From: Marinibacterium sp.
GTDB taxonomy: Bacteria; Pseudomonadota; Alphaproteobacteria; Rhodobacterales; Rhodobacteraceae
Direction of reading: 5' to 3'
Assembly: GCA_025800215.1 (NCBI GenBank)
Contig: JAOXSC010000147.1
Location: 1-64,000, forward strand
DNA length: 64,000 bases
The position numbers and the translations under genes are program-made. A model generated the notes under the pieces. That model was not told the DNA's origin. It did not search any database and saw only the letters and a program-made list of their open reading frames with translations. Positions 9,296 through 46,505 of this stretch are shown here, in pieces; within the stretch, counting starts at the first letter, position 1, and each line of letters opens with the position of its first letter.

Positions 9296-10471
9296 ATGAC
9301 AGGCCCCGCCCGTCCGTGGCTGGTGCTTGCCGGGCTGGCGCTTGGCGTGACGGCGACCAACGGGTTCGCGCGCTTTGCCTATGGGCTGATCCTGCCGGCG
9401 ATGAAGTCGGAAATGGGCTGGAGCTATGCTCAGGCGGGCTGGCTGAACACGGCCAATGCGCTTGGCTATATGGTCGGGGCGGTCCTGACCATGGTGCTGA
9501 TCGGGCGGGTGCCCCCATCGCGGCTGTTTTCCGTGGGGCTTCTGAGCACCACGGCGGCGCTGCTGGCCACGGGTCTGAACCCGGATCTGTGGTGGCAGAC
9601 ACTGTGGCGCGGTCTGGCCGGATTGTTCGGTGCGATGTCCTTTTCCACGGCTGGTGCGCTGACGGCGGGGCTGTTTCGGGATGATCCCAGGCGCAACGCG
9701 CTGGCGATTGCCATCCTGTTTGGCACCGGCGGCGGGCTGGCCATTGTGCTGTCGGGCGCGGTGCTGCCGCTTGTGCTGGATGCGTTCGGCCCCGCTGCAT
9801 GGCCGCTCTGCTGGGTTCTGGTGGGGGTGACCGCCGCCAGCTTTGTCCCGCTTGGCCTGTGGTCGGCGGCGCAGCTGAGGCCCCCGGTGCAGGCCGAGCG
9901 CCCGGCGCGCCGCCCCCTGCCGGTGCTGCGGATGCTGCCCGAGATCCTGGGGTACATGGGCTTTGGCATGGGGTATTTCGTGTTCCTGACCTTTCTGTCG
10001 GCCTGGATGACGGAACAGGATGCGGGGGCCGGGTTCATTGCGCTGGTCTGGGTGGTTCTGGGCGCGTGCATCTGCATCTGCCCGGCGGTCTGGCGCCCGG
10101 TGTTGGAGCGGTTCGACAATGGCGTGCCGCTGGCGATGATCCTGACGGGGATCGCGATCGGGTCGGCGGTGCCGGTGCTGCTGCCGGGGGGTGGGGCGCT
10201 GGTGGGATCGGCGGTGATCTTCGGGGTGTCGGTGTTCATGGCGCCGGGGGCGGTCACCACCTTTGTGCGCAAGAACCTGCCCGCCGACAGCTGGGGCCGC
10301 GCGATCAGCCTGTTTACCGCACTGTTTGCGCTGGCGCAGATTGCTGGCCCCTATGGCGCGGGTCTGGTGGGGGATCTCTTTGGCAATATCGGGGTCAGCC
10401 TGCTGGCCGCCGCTGCGATCCTGTTGATGGGGGCAGCGGCAGCGCTGATGCAGAAACCGATCGCGGATTGA
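9296..10471 (+). CDS. MFS transporter, YbfB/YjiJ-like
   Basis: A 391-residue inner-membrane protein with about twelve hydrophobic helices. The N-terminal region (GVTATNGFARFAYGLILPAMKSEMGWSYAQAGWLNTANALGYM) resembles the YbfB/YjiJ group of major-facilitator proteins. I chose the ATG at 9296, because upstream in-frame codons give a cysteine-rich, non-hydrophobic extension. The substrate is unknown. It converges on msrA, with a 10-bp inverted repeat spanning the shared 3' end. Confidence 0.85.
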   Translation: MTGPARPWLVLAGLALGVTATNGFARFAYGLILPAMKSEMGWSYAQAGWLNTANALGYMVGAVLTMVLIGRVPPSRLFSVGLLSTTAALLATGLNPDLWWQTLWRGLAGLFGAMSFSTAGALTAGLFRDDPRRNALAIAILFGTGGGLAIVLSGAVLPLVLDAFGPAAWPLCWVLVGVTAASFVPLGLWSAAQLRPPVQAERPARRPLPVLRMLPEILGYMGFGMGYFVFLTFLSAWMTEQDAGAGFIALVWVVLGACICICPAVWRPVLERFDNGVPLAMILTGIAIGSAVPVLLPGGGALVGSAVIFGVSVFMAPGAVTTFVRKNLPADSWGRAISLFTALFALAQIAGPYGAGLVGDLFGNIGVSLLAAAAILLMGAAAALMQKPIAD

Positions 10472-33995: not shown

Positions 33996-34020
33996 GGTGT
34001 TTAGTCCCAGTGTGTGGTGG
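33996..34020 (+). repeat. Left terminal inverted repeat of the IS481 element
   Basis: Begins GGTGTTTAGTCCCAG and continues TGTGTGGTGG; matched by the reverse complement at 34974-34998 with one difference (T against C at the sixteenth base). Confidence 0.85.
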
Positions 34021-34053
34021 TCTACTGATCTGTGACCATCAGAAGGATGCACT

Positions 34054-35001
34054 ATGGGACAAATTCTTCACGGGAGCGCCAAGACCACGCACGCCGTCCG
34101 AGCTCTCATACAGCGATCAAAAGCTTCGAACGCGGCGCTGAGCCGGGAACTGGGCATCAACGTCAAGACCGTCGCAAAGTGGCGCAAGCGTGACAGCGTT
34201 CAAGACGCTGCTATGGGGCCGAAGGAGGCCCATTCCACGGTTCTCAGCATCGAAGAGGAGGCCGTCATCGTTGCTTTCCGGCGGCACAGTTTGCTGCCGT
34301 TGGATGACTGCCTCTACGCTTTACAGCCGACCATCCCGCATCTGACGCGGTCGTCGCTGCACAGATGCCTGCAGCGGCATCAGATCAGTCGGCTACCGGA
34401 GGTCGAAGGCGACAAACCGAAGAAGAAGTTCAAGCGCTACCCGATTGGGTATTTCCATATCGACATCGCGGAAGTTCGAACCGGTGAGGGTAAAATCCGC
34501 CTGTTCGTGGCCATCGACCGCACCTCCAAGTTCGCTTATGTTGAACTGCATGAACGGGCGGGCAAGATGATCGCGGCTCAATTCCTGCGCAATCTTATCG
34601 TAGCTGTACCCTACAAGATTCACACGATCCTGACCGACAACGGCATCCAGTTCACCAATCGCAAGCAGGATACATCGGCATTCGAACACGTCTTCGACCG
34701 CGTCTGTCGCGAACATGAGATCGATCACCGGCTGACCAAGGTGAACCACCCCTGGACCAATGGGCAGGTCGAGCGGATGAACCGGACGATCAAGGAGGCG
34801 ACGGTCAAGCGGTATCACTATGACACCCATTCCCAGCTTGAAACGCACGTCACCGATTTCATCGCAGCCTACAACTACGCACGCCGATTGAAGACGCTCC
34901 AAGGCCTCACACCGTTCGAATACACCTGCAAAATCTGGACATCAGAACCAGAGCGATTCAATGTCGACCCAACCCACCACACGCTGGGACTAAACACCTA
35001 A
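34054..35001 (+). CDS. IS481-family DDE transposase
   Basis: A 315-residue transposase. The N-terminal HTH part (KTTHAVRALIQRSKASNAALSRELGINVKTVAKWRKRDSV) is followed by the DDE integrase core: first Asp in YFHIDIAEVRTGEGKIRLFVAIDRTSKFAYVELHERA, second in ILTDNGIQFTNR, and the Glu in HPWTNGQVERMNRTIKEATVKRYHYD. The C-terminus reads THHTLGLNT and is encoded within the right inverted repeat, so the stop codon at 34999-35001 falls just outside the repeat. The frame is intact and the enzyme is presumably active. Confidence 0.92.
   Translation: MGQILHGSAKTTHAVRALIQRSKASNAALSRELGINVKTVAKWRKRDSVQDAAMGPKEAHSTVLSIEEEAVIVAFRRHSLLPLDDCLYALQPTIPHLTRSSLHRCLQRHQISRLPEVEGDKPKKKFKRYPIGYFHIDIAEVRTGEGKIRLFVAIDRTSKFAYVELHERAGKMIAAQFLRNLIVAVPYKIHTILTDNGIQFTNRKQDTSAFEHVFDRVCREHEIDHRLTKVNHPWTNGQVERMNRTIKEATVKRYHYDTHSQLETHVTDFIAAYNYARRLKTLQGLTPFEYTCKIWTSEPERFNVDPTHHTLGLNT
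34974..34998 (-). repeat. Right terminal inverted repeat of the IS481 element
   Basis: Reverse complement begins GGTGTTTAGTCCCAG and continues CGTGTGGTGG, matching the left end. It also encodes the last eight residues of the transposase. Confidence 0.85.
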
Positions 35002-35158: not shown

Positions 35159-36304
35159 TTAAAGCACCCGGTCGAGCAGGGCGTTGGTGTAGTCTTCGGT
35201 CATCTCGATGGGGTTGCCGCCGCAGGACGGGTCTTTGAGCGCGCCTTGCAGGATCGCGGCGCGGTCGGGGTTGGTCACACCCAGTGCGGCCAGATCCGCA
35301 GGGATGCCCAGCCTGGCGTTCAGATCGCCCACAAAGGCGTAGAACCCGTCAAACCCGCCGTCGATCCCCAGATAGCGCGCCGCCATGGCCAGACGGTCTG
35401 CGATGGCCGGGCGGTTGGCATCGAGCACCGCCTGCATCACCACCGCATTGGTGGTGCCGTGATGGGTGTGATAGATTGCGCCGATCGGGTGGCTGAGCGC
35501 ATGGATCGCGCCCAGGCCCTTTTGGAACGCCGTTGCCCCCATCATCGCCGCCGACATCATATGCGCGCGGGCCTCAAGATCGTCGGGGGTGTCATAGGCG
35601 CGCGGCAGGTTGTCCTTGACCAGACGCATCCCTTCGAGCGCGATGCCCTGGCTCATCGGGTGGTAATGGGGGCTGCAGAACGCTTCGAGGCAATGGGCAA
35701 AGGCATCCATCCCGGTGCCTGCGGTGATGAAGGCGGGCATGCCCACGGTCAGTTCGGGATCCGCGATCACCACAGATGGCAGCACCTTGGGGTGAAAGAT
35801 GATCTTCTTTTCCTGCGTGTCGGCATTGGTCAGGACGCTGGCGCGGCCGACCTCGGACCCGGTTCCGGCGGTGGTGGGCACCGCGATATTGGGATAGATC
35901 GCATCGGCATCGGCACGGGTCCACCAGTCGCCGATGTCTTCGAAATCCCAGACCGGGCGGGTCTGACCGGCCATGAAGGCCACCATCTTGCCCAGATCCA
36001 GCCCCGAGCCGCCGCCAAAGGCGATGACCCCGTCATGCCCGCCGGATCTGAAGGCCACCACACCGGCGGTCAGGTTGGCTTCGTTGGGGTTGGGATCCAC
36101 ATCGGCAAAGAGTGCGCGGCCAAGGCCTGCGGCCTCAAGCACATCCAGCGCGCCCTGGGTGATGGGCAGATCGGCCAGGCCGCGATCGGTCACCAGCAGG
36201 GGCTTGGTGATCCCGGCCTGGGCGCAGGCCTCGGGCAGTTCCTGAATGCGGCCTGCGCCAAAGCGGATGGCGGTGGGATAGGACCAGTTTGCGGTCAAAG
36301 ACAT
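35159..36304 (-). CDS. Iron-containing alcohol dehydrogenase
   Basis: A 381-residue group III alcohol dehydrogenase. The NAD-binding stretch GVIAFGGGSGLDLGKMVAFMAGQ and the substrate region AVPTTAGTGSEVGRASVLT are clear. The metal ligands lie in GTGMDAFAHCLEAFCSPHYHPMS (Asp/His) and GLGAIHALSHPIGAIYHTHHG (His). It would oxidise a primary alcohol to the aldehyde. It is the last gene of the minus-strand operon, 25 bp after the aldehyde dehydrogenase that could take its product. In context the substrate may be a gamma-glutamylated amino-alcohol (inference). Confidence 0.92.
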   Translation of the reverse strand: MSLTANWSYPTAIRFGAGRIQELPEACAQAGITKPLLVTDRGLADLPITQGALDVLEAAGLGRALFADVDPNPNEANLTAGVVAFRSGGHDGVIAFGGGSGLDLGKMVAFMAGQTRPVWDFEDIGDWWTRADADAIYPNIAVPTTAGTGSEVGRASVLTNADTQEKKIIFHPKVLPSVVIADPELTVGMPAFITAGTGMDAFAHCLEAFCSPHYHPMSQGIALEGMRLVKDNLPRAYDTPDDLEARAHMMSAAMMGATAFQKGLGAIHALSHPIGAIYHTHHGTTNAVVMQAVLDANRPAIADRLAMAARYLGIDGGFDGFYAFVGDLNARLGIPADLAALGVTNPDRAAILQGALKDPSCGGNPIEMTEDYTNALLDRVL

Positions 36305-36329
36305 AGGGTTTGCCTTTCCTGAAAGGGCC

Positions 36330-37712
36330 TTAGCCCGTCACTTTCTTGAGATGGTAGGATTTCGGGCGTGTGAGGTTGTGAAACCCGATCACCGACAGCC
36401 CGCCGCCACGCCCGGTGTTCTTGCAGCCGGTCCAGCACAGGCCGGGATCCAGATAATCGGCCCGGTTCATGAAGACGGTGCCGGTTTCGATGCGATCCCC
36501 AACCGCCATGGCGCGATCCAGATCGCGGGTCCAGAGGCTGGCGGTCAGGCCAAAGTCGCTATCGTTCATCAGCGCGATGGCCTCGTCATCCGAAGACACC
36601 TTCATGATGCCGACCACAGGCCCGAAGCTTTCGTCGCGCATCACCCGCATGTCATGGGTGACCCCGGTCAGGATCTGCGGTGTCAGATAGGCGCCGCCAT
36701 CATCTTCGGCAAAGGGGGCGATATGGGCGGTGGCGCCATCCGCGACCGCTTCGGCGATCTGGGCGCGCACTTCGGTGGCAAAGCGCAGATTGGCCATCGG
36801 GCCGATGGTGGTGTCGGGATCCAGCGGGTTGCCCAGCCTGTAGCCCCGGACGGTCTCGATCGCCTTGGCGACAAAGTCGTCATAGAGGCTGTCATGCACA
36901 TAGATCCGTTCGATCCCGCAGCAGCATTGCCCGGAATTGAACATCGCCCCGTCGATCAGCGTGTCCACGGCCGCGTCAAGATCGGCGTCCTCCATCACAT
37001 AGCCGGGATCCTTGCCGCCCAGTTCGGTGCCCACGCCGGTAAAGGTGCCGGCTGCCGCGCGCTCCATCGCCTGACCGCCGCCCACCGATCCGGTGAAGTT
37101 CACGAAATCGAACGCGTTGCCAGCGATCAGCGTGTTGGTGGTGTCGTGGCTCAGGAACAGGTTCTGGAACAGATCCGCCGGGATGCCCGCGCCGTGAAAG
37201 GCCTGCGCCATGCGTTCGCCCACCAGCAGCGTCTGGGTCGCGTGTTTGAGCATCACCGCATTGCCCGCGATCAGCGCGGGCGCCACGGTGTTGATCGCAG
37301 TCATGTAGGGATAGTTCCACGGTGCGACCACAAACACGACCCCGTGCGGCACCCGCTTGATCAGGCGTTTGAATGTGGCGTCTTCGCCCACCTCGATGTC
37401 GGCCAGCGCCTCGGCGGCGATGTTGGCCATATGGGTGGCGCGCTCTTCAAAGCCGCCGAATTCGCCGCCATAGCGTACCGGGCGGCCCATCATCCGGGCC
37501 AGTTCCGGGACGATGTCGTCATTCATTGCGCCCACGGCGGCGACACCGGCCAGCACCAGGTCGATACGCTCTTGCAGGGGGCGGGCGGCCCAGTCGGCCT
37601 GGGCCGTGCGCGCCCGCGCCACGGCGTCAAAGGCCGCATCGGCCGACAGCGTGTCCCGCGTGGCAAAAACCGATCCGTCGATCGGCGAGATACAGGTCAG
37701 AACCTCGGTCAT
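36330..37712 (-). CDS. NAD(P)-dependent aldehyde dehydrogenase
   Basis: A 460-residue ALDH-fold enzyme. Motifs: the Rossmann-linked VVAPWNYPYMTAINTVAPALIAGNAVMLKHATQT, FVNFTGSVGGGQAM, the catalytic Glu in GVGTELGGKDPGYVMEDADLD and the catalytic Cys in FNSGQCCCGIERIYVH, then ESFGPVVGIMKV. It oxidises an aldehyde to the acid. The ATG at 37712 has GGGGAT upstream; an in-frame TTG four codons earlier is less likely. It sits between the glutamine-synthetase-like ligase and the alcohol dehydrogenase, with only about 25 bp on each side. Confidence 0.93.
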   Translation of the reverse strand: MTEVLTCISPIDGSVFATRDTLSADAAFDAVARARTAQADWAARPLQERIDLVLAGVAAVGAMNDDIVPELARMMGRPVRYGGEFGGFEERATHMANIAAEALADIEVGEDATFKRLIKRVPHGVVFVVAPWNYPYMTAINTVAPALIAGNAVMLKHATQTLLVGERMAQAFHGAGIPADLFQNLFLSHDTTNTLIAGNAFDFVNFTGSVGGGQAMERAAAGTFTGVGTELGGKDPGYVMEDADLDAAVDTLIDGAMFNSGQCCCGIERIYVHDSLYDDFVAKAIETVRGYRLGNPLDPDTTIGPMANLRFATEVRAQIAEAVADGATAHIAPFAEDDGGAYLTPQILTGVTHDMRVMRDESFGPVVGIMKVSSDDEAIALMNDSDFGLTASLWTRDLDRAMAVGDRIETGTVFMNRADYLDPGLCWTGCKNTGRGGGLSVIGFHNLTRPKSYHLKKVTG

Positions 37713-37736
37713 GGATATCCCCAAAAGTTGAGAGGG

Positions 37737-39092
37737 TCAGGCGCGCTCGAACCCGCGCGCGATTTCATAATCGGTGACGATCTTGTCGAATTCTTCGATT
37801 TCCCATTCGGCGGCGCGGGCATAGTGGTCGATCACTGTGTCGCCCATGGCGTCGCGCAGCATCTGCGACCCCAGCAGGGCATCGCGCGCATCGCGCAGGG
37901 TGCGCGGGATGTGCCGTTTGGCATCGTCGGCATAGGCGTCGCCGTCATGGGGGTCGGGCAGGGGCAGTTCGTCTTCGATCCCCTTGAGCCCGGCGGCCAG
38001 CATCGCGGCCTGCGCCAGATAGGGGTTCATGTCCGCACCCGGAATGCGGCATTCCACGCGCACGCCGCGCGTGCCATCCCCGCACAGCCGGAACGCGGCG
38101 GTGCGGTTGTCCACCGACCACACGGTCTGGGTGGGGGCAAAGCTGCCTTTGGCAAAGCGTTTGTAGCTGTTGATATAGGGCGCCATGAAACAGGTGTAGT
38201 CGCCCGCATAGGCGATCAGCCCGGCCATGTAGTGATCCATCAGCCTGGATTTCGCCAGCGGCCGGTCGGCGTCATGGAACGCATTGGCCCCGTCCTGCCA
38301 CAGCGACTGGTGCACATGGCTGGCGCTGCCCACGCGGTCCTTGTGCCATTTGGGCAGAAAGCTGGCCGCAACCCCGTGCTGATGGGCGATCTCTTTGACC
38401 GCGTGCTTGGCCAGCGTGTGGTGGTCGGCGGTGGACAGGGCGTCGGCATATTTGATGTTCAGCTCTTCCTGACCGGCCTCGGCTTCGCCCTTGGAGCCTT
38501 CGACAGGCACCCCCATGGCGCGCAGGTGGTTGCGGATCGGGCGCATCACGTGCTCTTCCTTGGAGGTCTGGAAGATGTGGTAATCTTCGTTGTAATTCGA
38601 AATCGGAGTGAGCTCGAACCCCCCCCGCGCAATGGCGTCATGGGTGCCCTGGAACAGGAAGAATTCCAGTTCCGTCGCCATCACCGGATCAAATCCCATG
38701 GCCTGCGCCCGCGCCACCTGACGTTTCAGGATCTCGCGCGGGGCGTGGGGCACTGGCGCGTGGCTGTGGTGGTCGATCACGTCGCACAGCACCATCGCGC
38801 TGCCGTCGGCCCAGGGCAGGGGGCGCAGCGTCGACAGGTCGGGCTTCATGATGTAGTCGCCATAGCCCCGTTCCCACGAGGTCGCGTCATAGCCATCGGG
38901 CGTGGCCATTTCCAGATCGGTCGCCAGCAGATAGTTGCAGCAATGGGTTTCCCCATGGGCGATCTCAAGAAAGGCTTCGGCATGGAACCGTTTGCCCATC
39001 AGGTGGCCCTGCATGTCGACAATGCAGGCCACAACCGTGTCGATGCGACCCGTGGCGACCAGGTCCTGAAGCGTTTCAAAGGTCAATGACAC
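37737..39092 (-). CDS. Glutamine synthetase family ligase (probable gamma-glutamyl-amine synthetase)
   Basis: A 451-residue member of the GS fold outside the GlnA core: TELEFFLFQ for the metal site, GEAEAGQEELNIKYADAL, GVAASFLPKWHKDRVGSASHVHQSLW, and CRIPGADMNPYLAQAAMLAAGLKGIEDEL. These are features shared with PuuA/IpuC-type ligases that join an amine to the gamma-carboxyl of glutamate. The GTG at 39092 is the start: AAGGAG lies seven bases upstream, and the longer open frame is Arg/Pro-rich. Its neighbours (ALDH, alcohol dehydrogenase, TRAP transporter, amidohydrolase) suggest an imported amino-alcohol as substrate, for example ethanolamine or a relative. Substrate identity is inferred. Confidence 0.88.
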   Translation of the reverse strand: MSLTFETLQDLVATGRIDTVVACIVDMQGHLMGKRFHAEAFLEIAHGETHCCNYLLATDLEMATPDGYDATSWERGYGDYIMKPDLSTLRPLPWADGSAMVLCDVIDHHSHAPVPHAPREILKRQVARAQAMGFDPVMATELEFFLFQGTHDAIARGGFELTPISNYNEDYHIFQTSKEEHVMRPIRNHLRAMGVPVEGSKGEAEAGQEELNIKYADALSTADHHTLAKHAVKEIAHQHGVAASFLPKWHKDRVGSASHVHQSLWQDGANAFHDADRPLAKSRLMDHYMAGLIAYAGDYTCFMAPYINSYKRFAKGSFAPTQTVWSVDNRTAAFRLCGDGTRGVRVECRIPGADMNPYLAQAAMLAAGLKGIEDELPLPDPHDGDAYADDAKRHIPRTLRDARDALLGSQMLRDAMGDTVIDHYARAAEWEIEEFDKIVTDYEIARGFERA

Positions 39093-39134
39093 CGGGGTCT
39101 CCTTGTCATGAAGGGCGCGAAGGATGCGAAGGAC

Positions 39135-39158
39135 GGGGCAGGCCCGGTGGCCCGCCCC
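39135..39158 (-). promoter_or_regulatory. Intercistronic hairpin between the TRAP binding-protein gene and the ligase gene
   Basis: A 10-bp stem with one G-U pair in RNA (GGGGCGGGCC with GGCCTGCCCC, minus strand) and a 4-base loop, in the 85-bp gap between the two genes. Without a T run it is more likely an mRNA stability element or a weak attenuator than a full terminator. Confidence 0.5.
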
Positions 39159-39177
39159 GCCCGAGGATCTGCGTGGA

Positions 39178-40212
39178 TCAGCCGTAGCGATAGGGCCGAC
39201 CGGCCTTGAGCATGTCGGCGTTGTAGCGCTTGAAGATCTCGACCACCTTGGCCTTGGTTTCGCTTTCGGCGGCGATCTCGTCCCAGAAGGTGACGGCGGC
39301 GGCTTCGACCTGGGCCCATTCTTCATCGGGGATCGAGGTCAGCTGCATCTTGTCGCCATTGACGCGCAGGCTTGCCTCGCCGCCCCAGTACCACCACTGG
39401 CGGTAGTAATGGGACTGGTCGGTGCAGACGCGGAACAGGGTCTGCAGGTCTTCGGGCAGTTCGTTCCAGCGATCCATATTGGCAAAGAACGATCCCGCCC
39501 AGGCGCCCGAGATGTTGTTGGTCAGGAAATAGTTCGTCACATCCGCCCAGCCGACGGTGTAATCTTCGGTGATGCCCGACCAGGCGATGCCGTCGAGCTC
39601 GCCGGTCTGCACGGCGACTTCGATGTCTTCCCAGGGCAGGGTGACCGGCACCACGCCGAATTGCGACAGGAAGCGGCCCGCCGTGGGGAAGGTGAAGACG
39701 CGCTTGCCCTTGAGATCCTCAAGGCTGCGGATCGGATCCTTGGTGGCGAAATGGCACGGATCCCATGCCCCTGCGGAGATGTGTTTCACGCCGACCTTGG
39801 AATATTCTTCGTCCCAGATCTCGTTCAGGCCGTATTGGTTGAACAGCACCGGCACATCCAGCGAATAGCGCGACGCAAAGGGGAAATAGCCGCCGAACAC
39901 GGTGACTTCGGTGGGCGATGCCATGGAATCGTCATCCGACTGCACCGCGTCGATGGTGCCGCGCTGCATGGCGCGGAACAGCTCGCCCGTGGGCACCAGC
40001 TGATCGGCGTAGAACAGTTCGATCTGCATGCGGTCGCCGGCGATCTTGTTGAACATCTCGATCGCAGGGTCGATCACATGGGCCGCCAGCGCCGGGCCCG
40101 CATAGGTCTGCATCCGCCAGGTGATGGTCGATTGCGCCAGTGCCGGGGCCGCCAGCGGGGCAGCCGCAGCGCCGATGCCCGCGGTTTTCAGGAAATTGCG
40201 TCTTGTCGTCAT
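39178..40212 (-). CDS. TRAP transporter substrate-binding protein (DctP-type), Tat-exported
   Basis: A 344-residue periplasmic binding protein. The N-terminus MTTRRNFLKTAGIGAAAAPLAAPALAQ is a twin-arginine signal with AxA cleavage near residue 26. The mature part has the TRAP family pattern: AGDRMQIELFYADQLVPTGELFRAMQRGTIDAV, SLEDLKGKRVFTFPTAGRFLSQFGVVPVTLPWEDIEVAVQTGELDGIAW with the ligand-carboxylate arginine region, and a C-terminal helix. It delivers a ligand to the DctQM permease encoded just upstream. In this branch ligands are often organic acids or amides; here the ligand is unknown. Confidence 0.92.
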   Translation of the reverse strand: MTTRRNFLKTAGIGAAAAPLAAPALAQSTITWRMQTYAGPALAAHVIDPAIEMFNKIAGDRMQIELFYADQLVPTGELFRAMQRGTIDAVQSDDDSMASPTEVTVFGGYFPFASRYSLDVPVLFNQYGLNEIWDEEYSKVGVKHISAGAWDPCHFATKDPIRSLEDLKGKRVFTFPTAGRFLSQFGVVPVTLPWEDIEVAVQTGELDGIAWSGITEDYTVGWADVTNYFLTNNISGAWAGSFFANMDRWNELPEDLQTLFRVCTDQSHYYRQWWYWGGEASLRVNGDKMQLTSIPDEEWAQVEAAAVTFWDEIAAESETKAKVVEIFKRYNADMLKAGRPYRYG

Positions 40213-40264
40213 GGGATCACCTCTCTGTGTCAGGTTGCATGTGCCCTTTGCGGGCCTCTTGTGG

Positions 40265-41584
40265 TTAATTTCCGTAGACCACGCCGGGCAGCCACAGGGC
40301 GATGCCGGGGAAGGTCATGATGATGGCCAGCGCCACGATCATCACCGCCACGAAGGGCAGGATCGACCGGTAGATGTCGCGCAGGCCGATTTCCGGCGGC
40401 GCCATGGCCCGCATCAGAAACAGGTTATAGCCAAAGGGCGGCGTCATATAGGCGATCTGCGTGGTGATCGTGTAAAGCACCCCGTACCAGATCAGATCAA
40501 AGCCAAGCGCCCCCACCAGCGGCACATAAAGCGGCGCCACGATGACCAGCATGGCGGTGTCATCCAGGAACGTGCCCATGACGATAAAGCTCAGCTGCAT
40601 CAGGATCAGGATCACCCAAGGGTTCAGCCCCAGCTGATCGGTGAACAGGTTTTCGATGGCACGCACCGCGCCCAGCCCGTCAAACACCGCGCCAAAGCCC
40701 AGGGCGGCCAGGATGATCCACATGAACATGCATGAAATCGCCAGCGTCTGCTTGGTGCAGGTTTCAAAAATGGCCCAGCTCATACGCCCCTTGAGGATCG
40801 ACGCCGCCAGCGCCGCGAGCGCCCCGATGGCCGAACTTTCGACCAGCGATGTCCAGCCATTCACAAAGGGCACCATCATCGTGGCAAAGATGCCAAAGGG
40901 CAGCAGACCGGCACCCAGCAGGCGGATCTTTTCGGCGCGCGGGACGGTGTGGGCGTCTTCCATGGCCGGGCCAAGCTCGGGCTGGATGCGGCAGCGGATC
41001 CAGATATAGGCGATGAACATCGCCGCCATCATCAGCCCCGGCACCACGCCCGCCAGCCACAGCTGGCCGACCGGCTGGCGCGCGATCATCGCATAAAGCA
41101 CCAGCACCACCGATGGCGGCACCAGGATCCCCAGCGATGACCCTGCCTGCACCACGCCGGTCACCATGATCTTGTCATAGCCCCGCCGCAGCAGTTCGGG
41201 CAGAGCGATCGTGGCGCCGATGGCCATGCCCGCCACGCTCAGCCCGTTCATGGCAGAAATCAGCACCATCAGCCCGATGGTGCCGATGGCAAGCCCGCCC
41301 TGCACCGGCCCCATCCAGACGTGGAACATGCGATAAAGATCATCTGCCAGCCGCGATTCCGACAGCACGTAGCCCATGAAGATGAACATCGGCAGGGTCA
41401 GAAGCGGATACCATTTCATCAGCTTCATCGCCGCCGAAAACGGGATGTCGGTGCCCCCCGTCCCCCACAGCGCCAGCGCGGCGATGGCCCCCACCGCGCC
41501 GATGGCGCCAAACACGCGCTGGCCGGTGAACAGCATCAGCATCATGGATGCGAACATGAAGATCGCGATGTATTCCTGGCTCAT
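40265..41584 (-). CDS. TRAP transporter large permease subunit (DctM-type)
   Basis: A 439-residue inner-membrane protein with about twelve helices, typical for DctM: FMFASMMLMLFTGQRVFGAIGAV at the start, LPMFIFMGYVLSESRLADDLYRMF, VQAGSSLGILVPPSVVLVLYAMIA and LDDTAMLVIVAPLYVPL. It forms the ion-coupled channel for the binding-protein ligand. The ATG at 41584 overlaps the small-permease stop by 4 bp (ATGA); the longer open frame upstream is His/Gly-rich shadow of that gene. Confidence 0.94.
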   Translation of the reverse strand: MSQEYIAIFMFASMMLMLFTGQRVFGAIGAVGAIAALALWGTGGTDIPFSAAMKLMKWYPLLTLPMFIFMGYVLSESRLADDLYRMFHVWMGPVQGGLAIGTIGLMVLISAMNGLSVAGMAIGATIALPELLRRGYDKIMVTGVVQAGSSLGILVPPSVVLVLYAMIARQPVGQLWLAGVVPGLMMAAMFIAYIWIRCRIQPELGPAMEDAHTVPRAEKIRLLGAGLLPFGIFATMMVPFVNGWTSLVESSAIGALAALAASILKGRMSWAIFETCTKQTLAISCMFMWIILAALGFGAVFDGLGAVRAIENLFTDQLGLNPWVILILMQLSFIVMGTFLDDTAMLVIVAPLYVPLVGALGFDLIWYGVLYTITTQIAYMTPPFGYNLFLMRAMAPPEIGLRDIYRSILPFVAVMIVALAIIMTFPGIALWLPGVVYGN

Positions 41585-42165
41585 CTGCGGGCCACCCCGA
41601 TGTCGTGGCCCCTGAGGCGGGCAATGTCCTTGAAAAGCTCGGAAATGGCCTGCAGCAGCATCAGAAAGATGCCGGTGACCATGATCGCCTTGACCGGCCA
41701 GATGAATGGCCTCCACGCGGTCGAGGATCGTTCAAGGCGCCCGATCTCTTCGCTGCCGGTGATCAGCCCGCCGAAGAATTCAAACGGGTTGGTGCCCCAA
41801 TATCCAAGCGAATAGGCGGTCGATCCCAGCCCGCCATAGAACAGCACGCCCAGATAGAAGATCAGAAACAGCACCGTGAAGCTGTCGACCCAGGCTTTCC
41901 GGCGTGGGCTCCAGTCGTGATAGAACAGATCCATGCGCACATTCGCGCCAAGCTGCATCGCATAGGGGCCGCCGATCAGGTAGTAGGTGACCATGGCAAA
42001 CTGCGCCATTTCCAGCGTCCAGAGCGAGGGCAGAAAGAAGGTCTTTGAGATCGAAGACCACAGCAGGATCCCCATCATCCCGAACAGCCCCCACATCATC
42101 ACCCGGCCGATCCGGTAATTCACCGCATCGACGACACGCACATAGGCTGCCATTGCACGGATCAT
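41581..42165 (-). CDS. TRAP transporter small permease subunit (DctQ-type)
   Basis: A 194-residue inner-membrane protein with four helices; key stretches are MWGLFGMMGILLWSSISKTFFLPSLWTLEMAQFAMVTYYLIGGPYAMQLGANVRMDLFYHDWSPRRKAW, which is the DctQ hallmark, and a C-terminal helix AIMVTGIFLMLLQAISELFKD. The start ATG at 42165 overlaps the stop of the upstream amidohydrolase-like gene by 4 bp, so hydrolase and transporter are coupled. Confidence 0.92.
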   Translation of the reverse strand: MIRAMAAYVRVVDAVNYRIGRVMMWGLFGMMGILLWSSISKTFFLPSLWTLEMAQFAMVTYYLIGGPYAMQLGANVRMDLFYHDWSPRRKAWVDSFTVLFLIFYLGVLFYGGLGSTAYSLGYWGTNPFEFFGGLITGSEEIGRLERSSTAWRPFIWPVKAIMVTGIFLMLLQAISELFKDIARLRGHDIGVARR

Positions 42166-42959
42166 TGGATGCCCCTTTCCCTGATTTGGGAAAGTGTCCC
42201 GGAAATCCACGGCGCCAGCGCCTGTCCCCAGGCATCCTGATCCCCGGTTCGGGCGATCAGATCATTGCGGATCTCCAGCATCACGCTCAGCAATCCGTTC
42301 TTGGCCCCCTGCACATCCAGCGTATGCGCCACCCCGTCCGCAGCGCTATAGGGTTCATTGAGGCGCGTCAGATGCGCCCAGCCCGGCGGGGTCTGCGCCA
42401 GCATGGCGCGGGCAAAGCGGTCGTCGCGCCCGTGCAGCAGCCCCAGTTCCACCTTGCGCGGGACGCCGCGATAGATGGGGGTAAAGCTGTGCACCGTGAC
42501 CATCAGGCGAAGCGTGTCACGATGGCGTGCGATGACCTCGCTCAGGGCGGCGCGGAACGGGTCATGCACGCCCGCGATGCGTGCCGCGCGGGCGGCATCA
42601 TCCAGGTTGCGGTTGCCCGGAATGTCATGAATTTCGCTGCGTGAGGGCATGGCGTCGGGCGCATCGGGCGGGCGGTTGCAGTCAAACACCAGCCGCGAGA
42701 TCTGCCCCAGCACCAGCGGCGCATTCAGCGCGCCTGCCAGTGCGCGCGCCACCCCTGCGGCGCCGGGATCCCATGCGATGTGGCTTTGCAGCTGCGGCGC
42801 GCTCAGCCCCAGATCACCCAAGGCGGCCGGAACCCGGTTGGACGCATGTTCGCACACCACCAGGATCTGCGGATCAGGCGCCGCCGCGATCACCTCGGCC
42901 GCCGGACCAAAGCCCGGATCGTGCCGCTTTGATGCAATATCTGTCAGTCCCCGTGTCAT
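42162..42959 (-). CDS. N-formylglutamate amidohydrolase-like hydrolase
   Basis: A 265-residue protein of the N-formylglutamate amidohydrolase fold: ILVVCEHASNRVPAALGDLGL at the N-terminus (metal ligands E and H), SHIAWDPGAAGVARALAGALNAPLVLGQISRLVFDCNRPPDAPDAMP in the middle, and VTVHSFTPIYRG and GLLSVMLEIRNDLI towards the end. No histidine-utilisation genes are near, so a HutG role is unlikely. It is the first gene of the operon that carries a glutamate-amine ligase, which makes hydrolysis of a gamma-glutamyl amide, or of another N-acyl glutamate, an attractive but unproven role. Confidence 0.85.
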   Translation of the reverse strand: MTRGLTDIASKRHDPGFGPAAEVIAAAPDPQILVVCEHASNRVPAALGDLGLSAPQLQSHIAWDPGAAGVARALAGALNAPLVLGQISRLVFDCNRPPDAPDAMPSRSEIHDIPGNRNLDDAARAARIAGVHDPFRAALSEVIARHRDTLRLMVTVHSFTPIYRGVPRKVELGLLHGRDDRFARAMLAQTPPGWAHLTRLNEPYSAADGVAHTLDVQGAKNGLLSVMLEIRNDLIARTGDQDAWGQALAPWISGTLSQIRERGIQ

Positions 42960-42979
42960 GGTGAAGAGCTTTCTTCACC
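42960..42979. promoter_or_regulatory. Inverted-repeat operator candidate at the operon start
   Basis: GGTGAAGA-GCTT-TCTTCACC is a perfect 8-bp inverted repeat with a 4-bp spacer. It lies directly before the start codon of the amidohydrolase-like gene in the divergent region shared with the RpiR regulator. Confidence 0.65.
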
Positions 42980-43013
42980 GCAATGCCACCTGTCAAGATT
43001 CTTTCCGTTCACT

Positions 43014-43087: not shown

Positions 43088-43942
43088 ATGCCCACCATCG
43101 CCGAGATCATCGCCCGGGCCGACGATCTGACCCGCGCCGAACGCCAGCTTGCGGCGGCGATCCTCGACAATTATCCGATCCCCGGTCTGGGCAGCATCAC
43201 CGAGCTGGCCGAGCTGGCCGATGTCTCGACCCCGACCGTGGCGCGGATGGTGCAGAAACTGGGGTTTTCGGGGTATCCCGCCTTTCAGTCGGCCCTGCGC
43301 GAAGAGCTGCACGAGATCATTTCGAACCCGATCGAAAAGCGCACCCACCCCATTGCCGACCTGCCCGAAGGGCACATCCTGAACCGCTATGCACAAGCGG
43401 CCAGTGACAATCTGCGCAGCACGCTGGACCATATCGACGTCGATGCCTTTGGGGCGCTGTGCCAGCGGGTTTCCGACCCCGACCGGCGCATTCAGATCGC
43501 GGGTGGACGGCTGAGCGGGGTTCTGGCCCAGAGCCTCTATCTGCACCTGCAGATGATACGGCCCGATGTCTTCTTTATCCCGCCCCAGGCGTCCTGGCCG
43601 CATTGCGTGCTGGATCTGGGGGCGCGCGACACGCTGATCCTGTTTGACATCCGGCGCTATGAAAACGCGACGCTCACGCTGGCGGAAATGGCGCATGAGC
43701 GCGGTGCCGAAATTGTTCTTTTCACCGATCAGTGGCGGTCGCCCATTCAGCGGCTGGCCACCCACAGCTTTGCCGCGCGCATCGACGTGCCTTCGGCGTG
43801 GGATTCGTCGCTGGGGCTGATGCTGCTGGTGGAATGTCTGGTGGCGTCGGTGCAGGATCTGATGTGGGACAGTGTCAAAGCGCGCACCGATGAGCTCGAA
43901 GCCGCCTTTGACCGCACCCGGCTGTTCCGCAAATTCACCTGA
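43088..43942 (+). CDS. MurR/RpiR-family transcriptional regulator
   Basis: A 284-residue regulator: N-terminal HTH of the RpiR type (MPTIAEIIARADDLTRAERQLAAAILDNYPIPGLGSITELAELADVSTPTVARMVQKLGFSGYPAFQSALREEL) and a C-terminal SIS domain (about 125-260, IQIAGGRLSGVLAQSLYLHLQ ... ILFDIRRYENATLTLAEMAHERGAEIVLFTDQ). SIS domains usually bind phosphosugars, but in alphaproteobacteria this family also controls amino-acid and amine uptake operons. I chose the ATG at 43088, downstream of the promoter and operator. It is divergent from the seven-gene operon and probably controls it. Confidence 0.9.
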   Translation: MPTIAEIIARADDLTRAERQLAAAILDNYPIPGLGSITELAELADVSTPTVARMVQKLGFSGYPAFQSALREELHEIISNPIEKRTHPIADLPEGHILNRYAQAASDNLRSTLDHIDVDAFGALCQRVSDPDRRIQIAGGRLSGVLAQSLYLHLQMIRPDVFFIPPQASWPHCVLDLGARDTLILFDIRRYENATLTLAEMAHERGAEIVLFTDQWRSPIQRLATHSFAARIDVPSAWDSSLGLMLLVECLVASVQDLMWDSVKARTDELEAAFDRTRLFRKFT

Positions 43943-43954
43943 GATCGCGCGCCC

Positions 43955-44380
43955 TCAGACCGAGCTGAGCAGGATCGAGGTTTCGCTGTTGGTGATCCCC
44001 TCGATCATGCGGACCTCGCGCAGGACGCGGTCGAATTCGGGCAGGCTGCTGGCCGACAGCCGCGCCACCAGATCCCATTTGCCATTGGTGGAATGCAGTT
44101 GGCGCAGTTCAGGCAGGCCGCGCAGGCGTTTGATCACCTGCAGCGTGGCGTGGCCGGTGACCTCGATCATCATGATCGCCTGCACCCCGTCTGCGCCGTG
44201 ATCTTCGCGGGCGCGCACGGTAAAGCCCAGCACCGCCCCGCTGTCGAGCAGTCGGTCCAGCCGGTTCTGCACCGTCGCCCGCGACACTCCCAGGATCGTG
44301 GCCAGTTTCGACACCGGCGCGCGCCCATCGGTGCGCAGGGCCGAAATCAGCCTGCGGTCGAGCGCGTCAAGGGATTGCAT
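43955..44380 (-). CDS. Lrp/AsnC-family transcriptional regulator
   Basis: A 141-residue regulator with an N-terminal HTH (LDALDRRLISALRTDGRAPVSKLATILGVSRATVQNRLDRLLDSGAVLGFTVRA) and a C-terminal RAM sensor domain (VQAIMMIEVTGHATLQVIKRLRGLPELRQLHSTNGKWDLVARLSASSLPEFDRVL). The ATG at 44380 is chosen; a longer open frame upstream is shadow of the arginase gene. It is divergent from arginase and ornithine cyclodeaminase genes and is the likely arginine/ornithine-responsive activator of that pair. Confidence 0.92.
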   Translation of the reverse strand: MQSLDALDRRLISALRTDGRAPVSKLATILGVSRATVQNRLDRLLDSGAVLGFTVRAREDHGADGVQAIMMIEVTGHATLQVIKRLRGLPELRQLHSTNGKWDLVARLSASSLPEFDRVLREVRMIEGITNSETSILLSSV

Positions 44381-44445
44381 GAGCATATCGCCAATCGAAC
44401 ATGACATATTGTGTAGAATGGCCGCGCATATCGCGCAAGACGTGC

Positions 44446-44458
44446 GTACACTTTGTAC
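44446..44458. promoter_or_regulatory. Short inverted repeat, possible Lrp-type operator
   Basis: GTACA-CTT-TGTAC is a 13-bp inverted repeat in the 128-bp region between the divergent regulator and arginase genes. Size and place fit a site for an Lrp/AsnC-type dimer, though it is short. Confidence 0.4.
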
Positions 44459-44508
44459 AGGCTGCCGCGATACCATTTGGGTTATTGGATCTGACAAAAG
44501 GGCCACGC

Positions 44509-45429
44509 ATGACCGACATAACCCTATTGGGCGTCCCGATCGAGGATGGTGCAGGCCGACGCGGCTGCGCCATGGGGCCTGCCGCCTATCGCACGGCGGG
44601 TCTGGCGCAGGATCTGGCCGGGCTGGGCCATCACGTGCAGGACCGGGGCGATCTCGCCCCTGACCTGTCGGGCATGCAGGATGATCGCCTTGTCCGACCC
44701 GCGCATGTGTCGGGCTGGTCGCGCGCACTGTTTCGGGCGGCGCGGGATTTGGCGTTGCAGGATACGCTGCCGATCTATCTGGGCGGGGACCACGCCCTGT
44801 CTATCGGCAGTATCGCGGGCCATCTGGCCGCCGCCGAGATCCGGGGCCGCCCGCAATTCGTGCTGTGGCTGGACGCGCATGCCGATTTCAATACGCCCGC
44901 CACAAGCCCGAGCGGCAACATGCATGGCACGCCGCTGGCCTATCTGACAGGGATCGAGGACGCGAGCGCGCTGATGGGCGCGCCGCTGCCTGCGCGGCTT
45001 GATCCGGGCAACCTGTGCCTGCTGGGGCTGCGGTCGGTGGATGGGCCGGAACGGCAGCTGCTGCGCGGCTCGGGCGCGCTGGCCCATGACATGCGCGCGA
45101 TTGACGAGGCCGGGATCGGCCCCCTGCTGCGCCCGTTTCTGGATCGGGTCGTGGCGGAAGGCGGGCTGCTGCATGTCAGTCTTGATGTCGATTTCCTGGA
45201 CCCCGACATCGCCCCTGCGGTCGGCACCACGGTGCCCGGCGGCGCCACGTTCCGCGAAGCGCATCTGGTGATGGAGATGCTGCATGACAGCGGCTGTGTC
45301 GGCTCGCTCGACCTTGTGGAACTGAACCCCTTTCTGGACATGCGCGGGCGGACCACGCGGCTGATGGTCGATCTGACGGCCAGCCTGTTTGGCCGCACCG
45401 TGCTTGACCGTCCCACCACCAGCTATTGA
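44509..45429 (+). CDS. rocF: Arginase
   Basis: A 306-residue binuclear manganese enzyme that hydrolyses arginine to ornithine and urea. All metal motifs are present: GGDHALSIGS, WLDAHADFNTP, SLDVDFLDPDIAP, and the C-terminal SLDLVELNPFLD. Length and order match arginase rather than agmatinase, and the next gene uses ornithine, which supports the call. The start ATG at 44509 gives the family-typical MTDITLLGVPIEDG; the longer frame lies in the promoter region. Confidence 0.94.
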   Translation: MTDITLLGVPIEDGAGRRGCAMGPAAYRTAGLAQDLAGLGHHVQDRGDLAPDLSGMQDDRLVRPAHVSGWSRALFRAARDLALQDTLPIYLGGDHALSIGSIAGHLAAAEIRGRPQFVLWLDAHADFNTPATSPSGNMHGTPLAYLTGIEDASALMGAPLPARLDPGNLCLLGLRSVDGPERQLLRGSGALAHDMRAIDEAGIGPLLRPFLDRVVAEGGLLHVSLDVDFLDPDIAPAVGTTVPGGATFREAHLVMEMLHDSGCVGSLDLVELNPFLDMRGRTTRLMVDLTASLFGRTVLDRPTTSY

Positions 45430-45437
45430 GGCCGCTT

Positions 45438-46505
45438 ATGACAGACCCTGTCACCCCCGCCCCTTCGGATCTGGCCTTTGTGCCGTTTGTGTCGGTCGAT
45501 CACATGATGGGGTTGGTGCATCATATCGGCATCCGAACCGTGCTGGGCGACCTTGCCCGCGCCATCGAGGCCGATTTTCGCCGCTGGCCCGCCTTTGACA
45601 AGACGCCGCGCGTGGCGTCGCATTCCGATGTGGGCGTGATCGAGCTGATGCCCACATCCGATGGCGAAACCTACGGGTTCAAATATGTGAACGGCCACCC
45701 CAGCAACACCCGCGACGGGCTGCAGACGGTGACGGCCTTCGGGCTCTTGGCGGATGTGACCACCGGTTACCCCAAGCTGCTGTCGGAAATGACGCTGCTG
45801 ACGGCGCTGCGCACGGCGGCGACCTCGGCCATGGCGGCGCGGCATCTGGCGCCCAAAGGGGCGGGCACCATGGCGATGATCGGCAACGGGGCCCAGGCCG
45901 AATTCCAGTGTCTGGCGTTTCAGGCCGTGTGCGGGGTCGACCATGTGCGGCTGTATGATCTTGACCCGCGTGCCACCGAAAAATGCGCCCGCAACCTGCA
46001 GGGCTCGGGGCTGCGCGTGACCCCCTGCATCAGCGCCGAACAGGCGATGGAGGGCGCGCGGATCGTCACCACCTGCACCGCCGACAAGCAATATGCCACC
46101 ATCCTGACAGACAACATGATCGGCAGCGGCGTGCATATCAACGCCATTGGCGGGGATTGTCCGGGCAAGACGGAACTGGCCCGTGACATCCTGCTGCGAT
46201 CCGACATCTTTGTGGAATACCCGCCCCAGACGCGGGTCGAAGGCGAAATCCAGCAGCTGCCCGCCGATCACCCGGTGACCGAGCTGTGGCAGGTCATCAG
46301 TGGTGCGGCCCCTGGCCGGCGCTCGGCGGGGCAGATCACGCTGTTTGACAGCGTGGGCTTTGCGGTCGAAGATTTTGCCGCCCTGCGCTATGTGCATGAC
46401 GCGATCCAGGGCACGGAATTCTATACCCGGCTTGATATGCTGGCCGATCCCGACGATCCGCGCGATCTGTTCGGGATGCTGCAGCGGGCCGCCCCGGCGG
46501 GCTGA
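45438..46505 (+). CDS. Ornithine cyclodeaminase
   Basis: A 355-residue NAD-dependent enzyme of the ornithine cyclodeaminase/mu-crystallin family, converting ornithine to proline and ammonia. Motifs: FKYVNGHPSNTRDGLQTVTAFGLLADVTTGYPKLLSEMTLLTALRTAATSAMAARHLAP, the nucleotide-binding AMIGNGAQAEFQCLAF, and GVHINAIGGDCPGKTEL with the catalytic aspartate. AGG lies upstream of the ATG. It follows arginase by 8 bp, so the pair turns arginine into proline plus urea and ammonia. Confidence 0.94.
   Translation: MTDPVTPAPSDLAFVPFVSVDHMMGLVHHIGIRTVLGDLARAIEADFRRWPAFDKTPRVASHSDVGVIELMPTSDGETYGFKYVNGHPSNTRDGLQTVTAFGLLADVTTGYPKLLSEMTLLTALRTAATSAMAARHLAPKGAGTMAMIGNGAQAEFQCLAFQAVCGVDHVRLYDLDPRATEKCARNLQGSGLRVTPCISAEQAMEGARIVTTCTADKQYATILTDNMIGSGVHINAIGGDCPGKTELARDILLRSDIFVEYPPQTRVEGEIQQLPADHPVTELWQVISGAAPGRRSAGQITLFDSVGFAVEDFAALRYVHDAIQGTEFYTRLDMLADPDDPRDLFGMLQRAAPAG

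Follow-up and report, generated by a model that had tools for sequence, protein, structure and literature searches.

A Marinibacterium operon very probably of the known eto type, for ethanolamine use by gamma-glutamylation

Ethanolamine derived from phosphatidylethanolamine is an abundant source of nitrogen and carbon in the sea, and about 5-10% of the bacteria in the ocean are reported to carry etoX (PMC10132767). An ethanolamine operon was described in Phaeobacter (Roseobacter) sp. MED193 as MED193_10021-10056 (PMC10132767). According to the legend of Fig. 5 of that paper, it encodes the regulator RpiR (10021), gamma-glutamylglycine amidohydrolase (GGAH, 10026), the transporter proteins EtoV, EtoW and EtoX (etoVWX, 10031-10041), ethanolamine gamma-glutamylase (ETAGA, 10046), gamma-glutamylacetaldehydeamide dehydrogenase (GAADDH, 10051) and gamma-glutamylethanolamide dehydrogenase (GETADH, 10056). 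Five of these proteins, the amidohydrolase, EtoX, the ligase and the aldehyde and alcohol dehydrogenases, were induced on phosphoethanolamine. Purified EtoX bound ethanolamine with a Kd of 7.9 uM and did not bind phosphoethanolamine, phosphocholine, G1P or G3P; the evidence thus consists of ligand binding and induction, not of each enzyme step (PMC10132767). The same paper states that the genes are closely related to those of the pathway in Chromohalobacter salexigens and Agrobacterium tumefaciens.

The DNA analysed here, referred to as the window, was a stretch of 64,000 nucleotides from Marinibacterium sp. (contig JAOXSC010000147.1). Reading of the open reading frames and a Pfam search of the window showed seven open, intact and tightly packed genes on the minus strand at 35159-42959, arranged head to tail. 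A gene of the RpiR family lies upstream of them in divergent orientation. In the order of transcription, with functions predicted from the orthologues and the regulator last, the genes are:

42162..42959, minus strand: GGAH, gamma-glutamylglycine amidohydrolase of the N-formylglutamate-amidohydrolase (FGase) fold (Pfam FGase, 139 bits; role taken from MED193_10026)
41581..42165, minus strand: EtoV, small permease (DctQ) of the TRAP transporter (Pfam DctQ, 64 bits; ATG start; 4-bp overlap on each side)
40265..41584, minus strand: EtoW, large permease (DctM) of the TRAP transporter (Pfam DctM, 214 bits; ATG start; 4-bp overlap with DctQ)
39178..40212, minus strand: EtoX, ethanolamine-binding protein (DctP) of the TRAP transporter with a TAT signal (Pfam DctP, 72 bits; identity to 4uab and to MED193 EtoX)
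37737..39092, minus strand: ethanolamine gamma-glutamylase of the glutamine-synthetase family (Pfam Gln-synt_C, 336 bits; GTG start; member of the eto ligase clade)
36330..37712, minus strand: gamma-glutamylacetaldehydeamide dehydrogenase, an aldehyde dehydrogenase (Pfam Aldedh, 373 bits; catalytic motif FNSGQCCCGIERI present)
35159..36304, minus strand: gamma-glutamylethanolamide dehydrogenase, an iron alcohol dehydrogenase (Pfam Fe-ADH, 156 bits, and ADH_Fe_C)
43088..43942, plus strand: divergent regulator of the RpiR family (Pfam HTH_6 and SIS; the open reading frame opens at 42983)

All scores of the seven operon genes were far above the Pfam cut-offs. The original prediction, made from the letters alone, had described this seven-gene operon with its divergent regulator, and the gene families and intact reading frames bore it out. 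The close spacing that it had described, with overlaps of 4 bp or short gaps between nearly all genes, holds too. Two 4-bp ATGA overlaps occur at the top of the operon, between the amidohydrolase gene and DctQ and between DctQ and DctM; the gaps further down measure 52 bp (DctM-DctP), 85 bp (DctP to the ligase gene), 24 bp (ligase to aldehyde dehydrogenase) and 25 bp (aldehyde to alcohol dehydrogenase). The starts of DctQ, DctM and the aldehyde dehydrogenase gene were corrected to 42165, 41584 and 37712, all ATG. The regulator gene probably starts with the ATG at 43088 rather than at the opening of the frame, because homology begins near residue 33-36.

The eight genes follow the order of the MED193 operon exactly, and the predicted functions are the same. 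The MED193 proteins for this comparison were taken from contig NZ_CH902583.1 of Roseobacter sp. MED193 (locus L045), which carries no locus tags and was equated with MED193_10021-10056 by strain name and gene order. Identity between window and MED193 was 92% for EtoX, 83% for the aldehyde dehydrogenase, 75% for the alcohol dehydrogenase over its full length, 73% for DctM, 69% for the ligase, 60% for DctQ, 48% for the amidohydrolase and 46% for RpiR. We are highly confident that the operon of the window is the eto operon already known, through which ethanolamine is gamma-glutamylated and used. Orthology, gene order and intact genes, as well as the ligase placement and the loss of the carboxylate-binding arginine treated below, were read from the sequence itself. 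The operon is of a type already published, and novelty is absent. The expectation that such a route joined to a TRAP transporter and this hydrolase family would be unusual did not hold, as this is the published layout and occurs in dozens of Rhodobacterales. Reading of the raw sequence alone had recovered a real pathway including its class of substrate, but not its prior publication. The window adds one more genome with a complete eto operon.

In the predicted pathway, EtoX would be exported by the TAT system and capture ethanolamine, which would then be imported by the membrane subunits EtoVW. The ligase would form gamma-glutamylethanolamide from ethanolamine, glutamate and ATP, the iron alcohol dehydrogenase would oxidise this to gamma-glutamylacetaldehyde amide, and the aldehyde dehydrogenase would yield gamma-glutamylglycine. 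Finally, the FGase-family amidohydrolase would release glutamate and glycine. Each enzyme is presumed to act in the host on the same substrate as its orthologues. Each step foreseen by the original prediction, from import through gamma-glutamylation and two oxidations to hydrolysis into glutamate and glycine, has its counterpart in the pathway attributed to the orthologous operon (PMC10132767). A PDB match of the amidohydrolase was 2odf, Atu2144 (E=3e-69). As the amidohydrolase, like RpiR, is only in the 46-48% range of identity to MED193, the specificity of the hydrolase is the weakest enzymatic link. EutB of the classical eut pathway (ethanolamine ammonia-lyase) had no match in the host assembly (3.63 Mb in 228 contigs), an absence that is not firm at about 83% completeness.

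The best PDB match of the binding protein was 4uab (E=3e-192), with 84.6% identity over 318 amino acids, and the next match followed at E=6e-17. PDB 4UAB is Csal_0678 crystallised with ethanolamine (PMC12410723, PMC4646407). The selectivity of TRAP binding proteins for carboxylates is tied to a conserved arginine (Arg-147 of SiaP); 3% of these proteins are without it, phenylalanine being the commonest replacement, and Csal_0678 is named among them (PMC4646407). In DctP of the window this position, set by motif and not by structure superposition, is occupied by Phe173 in LKGKRVFTFP, of which KRVFTFP is identical in 4uab; Phe173 thus stands in a stretch, KRVFTFPTAGRFLS, that 4uab shares. With phenylalanine instead of arginine, binding of a carboxylate is unlikely. 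The original prediction had named affinity for a dicarboxylate or sugar acid as the finding that would speak against it, and the absence of the arginine from the sequence points the other way. Glu216 (GITEDYTVGW) is also conserved with 4uab, its match to Glu220 of Csal_0678, the platform residue of the ethanolamine site, hinging on an assumed numbering offset of three residues. From its identity to 4uab and to MED193 EtoX, the protein belongs with the Csal_0678/EtoX isofunctional group. Ethanolamine, one of the candidates that the original prediction had listed, is the best-supported substrate of the operon.

A pathway of the same type could also serve a related small amino-alcohol, such as 2-amino-1-propanol or isopropanolamine, and yield glutamate together with alanine or another amino acid. 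In favour of this, the amidohydrolase (41-64% identity) and RpiR (42-77%) are more variable among relatives than EtoX (88-97%). The Csal_0678 sequence has a second PDB entry, 4xf5, whose ligand we take to be a 2-aminopropanol. However, EtoX of the window shares 92% of its residues with MED193 EtoX, whose binding of ethanolamine has been measured, and ethanolamine is what the abundant marine phospholipids release (PMC10132767), so that another amino-alcohol as the true substrate appears very improbable.

The best NCBIfam score of the ligase was 252 bits for gamma-glutamylmethylamide synthetase (GMAS)/type III GlnT (TIGR03105; cut-off 469.6), followed by 233 bits for type I GlnA (cut-off 429) and 215 bits for PuuA (NF045547; cut-off 650). 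The last model is too strict to inform, as none of the control genomes, E. coli included, reached its cut-off, and the tree is the better test for PuuA. In a maximum-likelihood tree of GlnA, GMAS, PuuA, host paralogues, eto ligases and two PDB chains, which was built without GlnA4 and IpuC, the ligase fell into a clade with 100/100 support. This clade contained the ligases of MED193 and other eto operons, PDB 5dm3 (66% identity), presumably a C. salexigens protein, and PDB 11zs (54%). It lay apart from GlnA of E. coli and of the host (contig C187), from four GMAS-type proteins, and from PuuA with two PuuA-like host paralogues. Long branches between the groups leave their order unsure, while the eto clade itself is clear. 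The original prediction would have been contradicted by a ligase that groups with plain glutamine synthetases or GMAS; the ligase instead lies in an eto clade of its own, apart from these and from PuuA. A plain glutamine synthetase or GMAS was rejected on the scores below the cut-offs and the separate clade, and carboxylate transport by the operon was rejected on the absence of the arginine from DctP. That a chance assembly of genes combines carboxylate import, the usual cargo of TRAP transporters (PMC4646407), with an ordinary glutamine synthetase or GMAS, as a top score for type III GlnT might be taken to say, has a negligible probability, given a score far below the cut-off, a separate clade, a DctP without the arginine and a gene order fixed in all complete loci.

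Among 80 related loci, 62 held all eight genes at a coverage filter of 50%; order and strands were kept in 62 of 62, all from other genomes and with RpiR divergent in each, so that the arrangement is not due to chance. The other 18 were mostly cut by contig ends or had one gene below the filter; L034, L053 and L005 end at or before the genes of the ligase and the two dehydrogenases. In L010, L016, L064, L069 and L071, genes of an EtoX-like transporter occur with no ligase or dehydrogenase genes next to them, and either the enzymes may be encoded at another site or a different route may be served by the transporter. The closest relatives of the locus were found in Ruegeria, Shimia, Phaeobacter and other Rhodobacterales, and some loci were assigned to Gammaproteobacteria and other Alphaproteobacteria. 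In Marinovum algicola and in Ruegeria sp. B32 the operon, its order unchanged, is located on plasmids. A DctP of at least 63% identity was present in 23 of the 61 sampled genomes, the next matches being at about 30% or less.

The intergenic region near 43.0 kb, where the RpiR protein probably controls the promoter after sensing the substrate or an intermediate, contains two further features:

42991..42996, minus strand: TTGACA box, candidate -35 of the operon promoter, kept in orthologous intergenic regions
42960..42979, minus strand: near-perfect inverted repeat of 20 bp, GGTGAAGA-AAGC-TCTTCACC, candidate RpiR operator over the -10 and ending at the ATG of the amidohydrolase gene

Of 74 orthologous intergenic regions, 69 held TTGACA, whereas mononucleotide shuffles would lead one to expect 3.3; since the loci are related, this is to be read as a footprint and not as a probability. 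In many loci an inverted repeat follows about 11 bp past TTGACA, at the expected -10 (TGTGGAAATTTTTCCACA in Ruegeria, GGTGAAGAAAGCTCTTCACC in the window). The sequence of the palindrome varies with the genome, and its distance from TTGACA is roughly kept. A search of the 74 loci for a single conserved RpiR operator motif gave none, the commonest exact combination of arm and spacer being present in 8 of 74 and the TTGACA box alone being conserved. The two features suggest a promoter of the sigma-70 type with an RpiR operator over its -10, and this footprint is one small addition to a known operon. The repeat of the window abuts the amidohydrolase ATG and leaves no space for a ribosome-binding site, so that translation may begin on a leaderless mRNA or at a start codon further into the frame.

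Additional genes were seen within the operon of some relatives. In several Ruegeria, etoX and the ligase gene are separated by a gene for a PhoU-domain Na+/Pi-cotransporter (PF02690 and PF01895; L006:10184-11869). Similar inserts occur in L007, L008 and L024, and larger gaps between DctP and the ligase gene in L026, L033 and L039. The insert suggests a link to the phosphate released from phosphoethanolamine. In Leisingera/Phaeobacter and some other relatives, etoW is separated from etoX by a gene for a DUF4336 protein (PF14234) of about 240 amino acids (L032:8242-8973, also L022, L055 and L043). These accessory genes and the fast-changing RpiR operators could mark a local specialisation of the known operon, for instance a coupling of ethanolamine use to the phosphate of phosphoethanolamine, although we regard this as unlikely.

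In the window, an IS481-family element (33996-34998; transposase frame 34054-35001, 268 bits) with the terminal repeats GGTGTTTAGTCCC and GGGACTAAACACC separates dxs from the operon end; it is about 160 bp away from the alcohol dehydrogenase stop and leaves the operon unbroken. Beside the regulator, at 43955-46505, genes of the Lrp/AsnC type and for arginase-like and ornithine cyclodeaminase-like proteins were read from the translations only. On host contig C87 (2148-5514; L003, L004), two PuuA-like genes of the glutamine-synthetase family flank a frame for a class I glutamine amidotransferase-like protein (PuuD type); these genes form a second gamma-glutamylation cluster of the genome, probably for polyamine use.

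The ligase of the window shares the glutamine-synthetase fold with GMAS (TIGR03105) and GlnA, but at 30-34% identity and in separate supported clades. The Puu putrescine pathway (PuuA, E. coli) and the Ipu isopropylamine pathway likewise proceed by gamma-glutamylation of an amine, oxidation and deglutamylation; E. coli PuuA is 34% identical to the window ligase and lies outside the eto clade. PuuD is a hydrolase of the class I glutamine amidotransferase type, not of the FGase family. We know of no TRAP operon in the GlnA4 pathway of Streptomyces coelicolor. The chemistry of that pathway, with GlnA4 as gamma-glutamylethanolamide synthetase, is the same as in the window, including a predicted gamma-glutamylglycine amidohydrolase of the FGase family, SCO1615, and the same paper also cites an ethanolamine route for Chromohalobacter (PMC6529630). 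The ethanolamine route of C. salexigens (Csal_0678, PDB 4UAB) and Agrobacterium tumefaciens C58 (Vetting et al. 2015, Biochemistry 54:909) was compared through papers that cite it, and its binding protein is 84.6% identical to that of the window. The closest counterpart is the MED193 operon, with the same eight genes in the same order and on the same strands at 46-92% identity per protein. It differs from the window operon by sequence divergence only, and the window has the IS481 element just downstream of the alcohol dehydrogenase gene.
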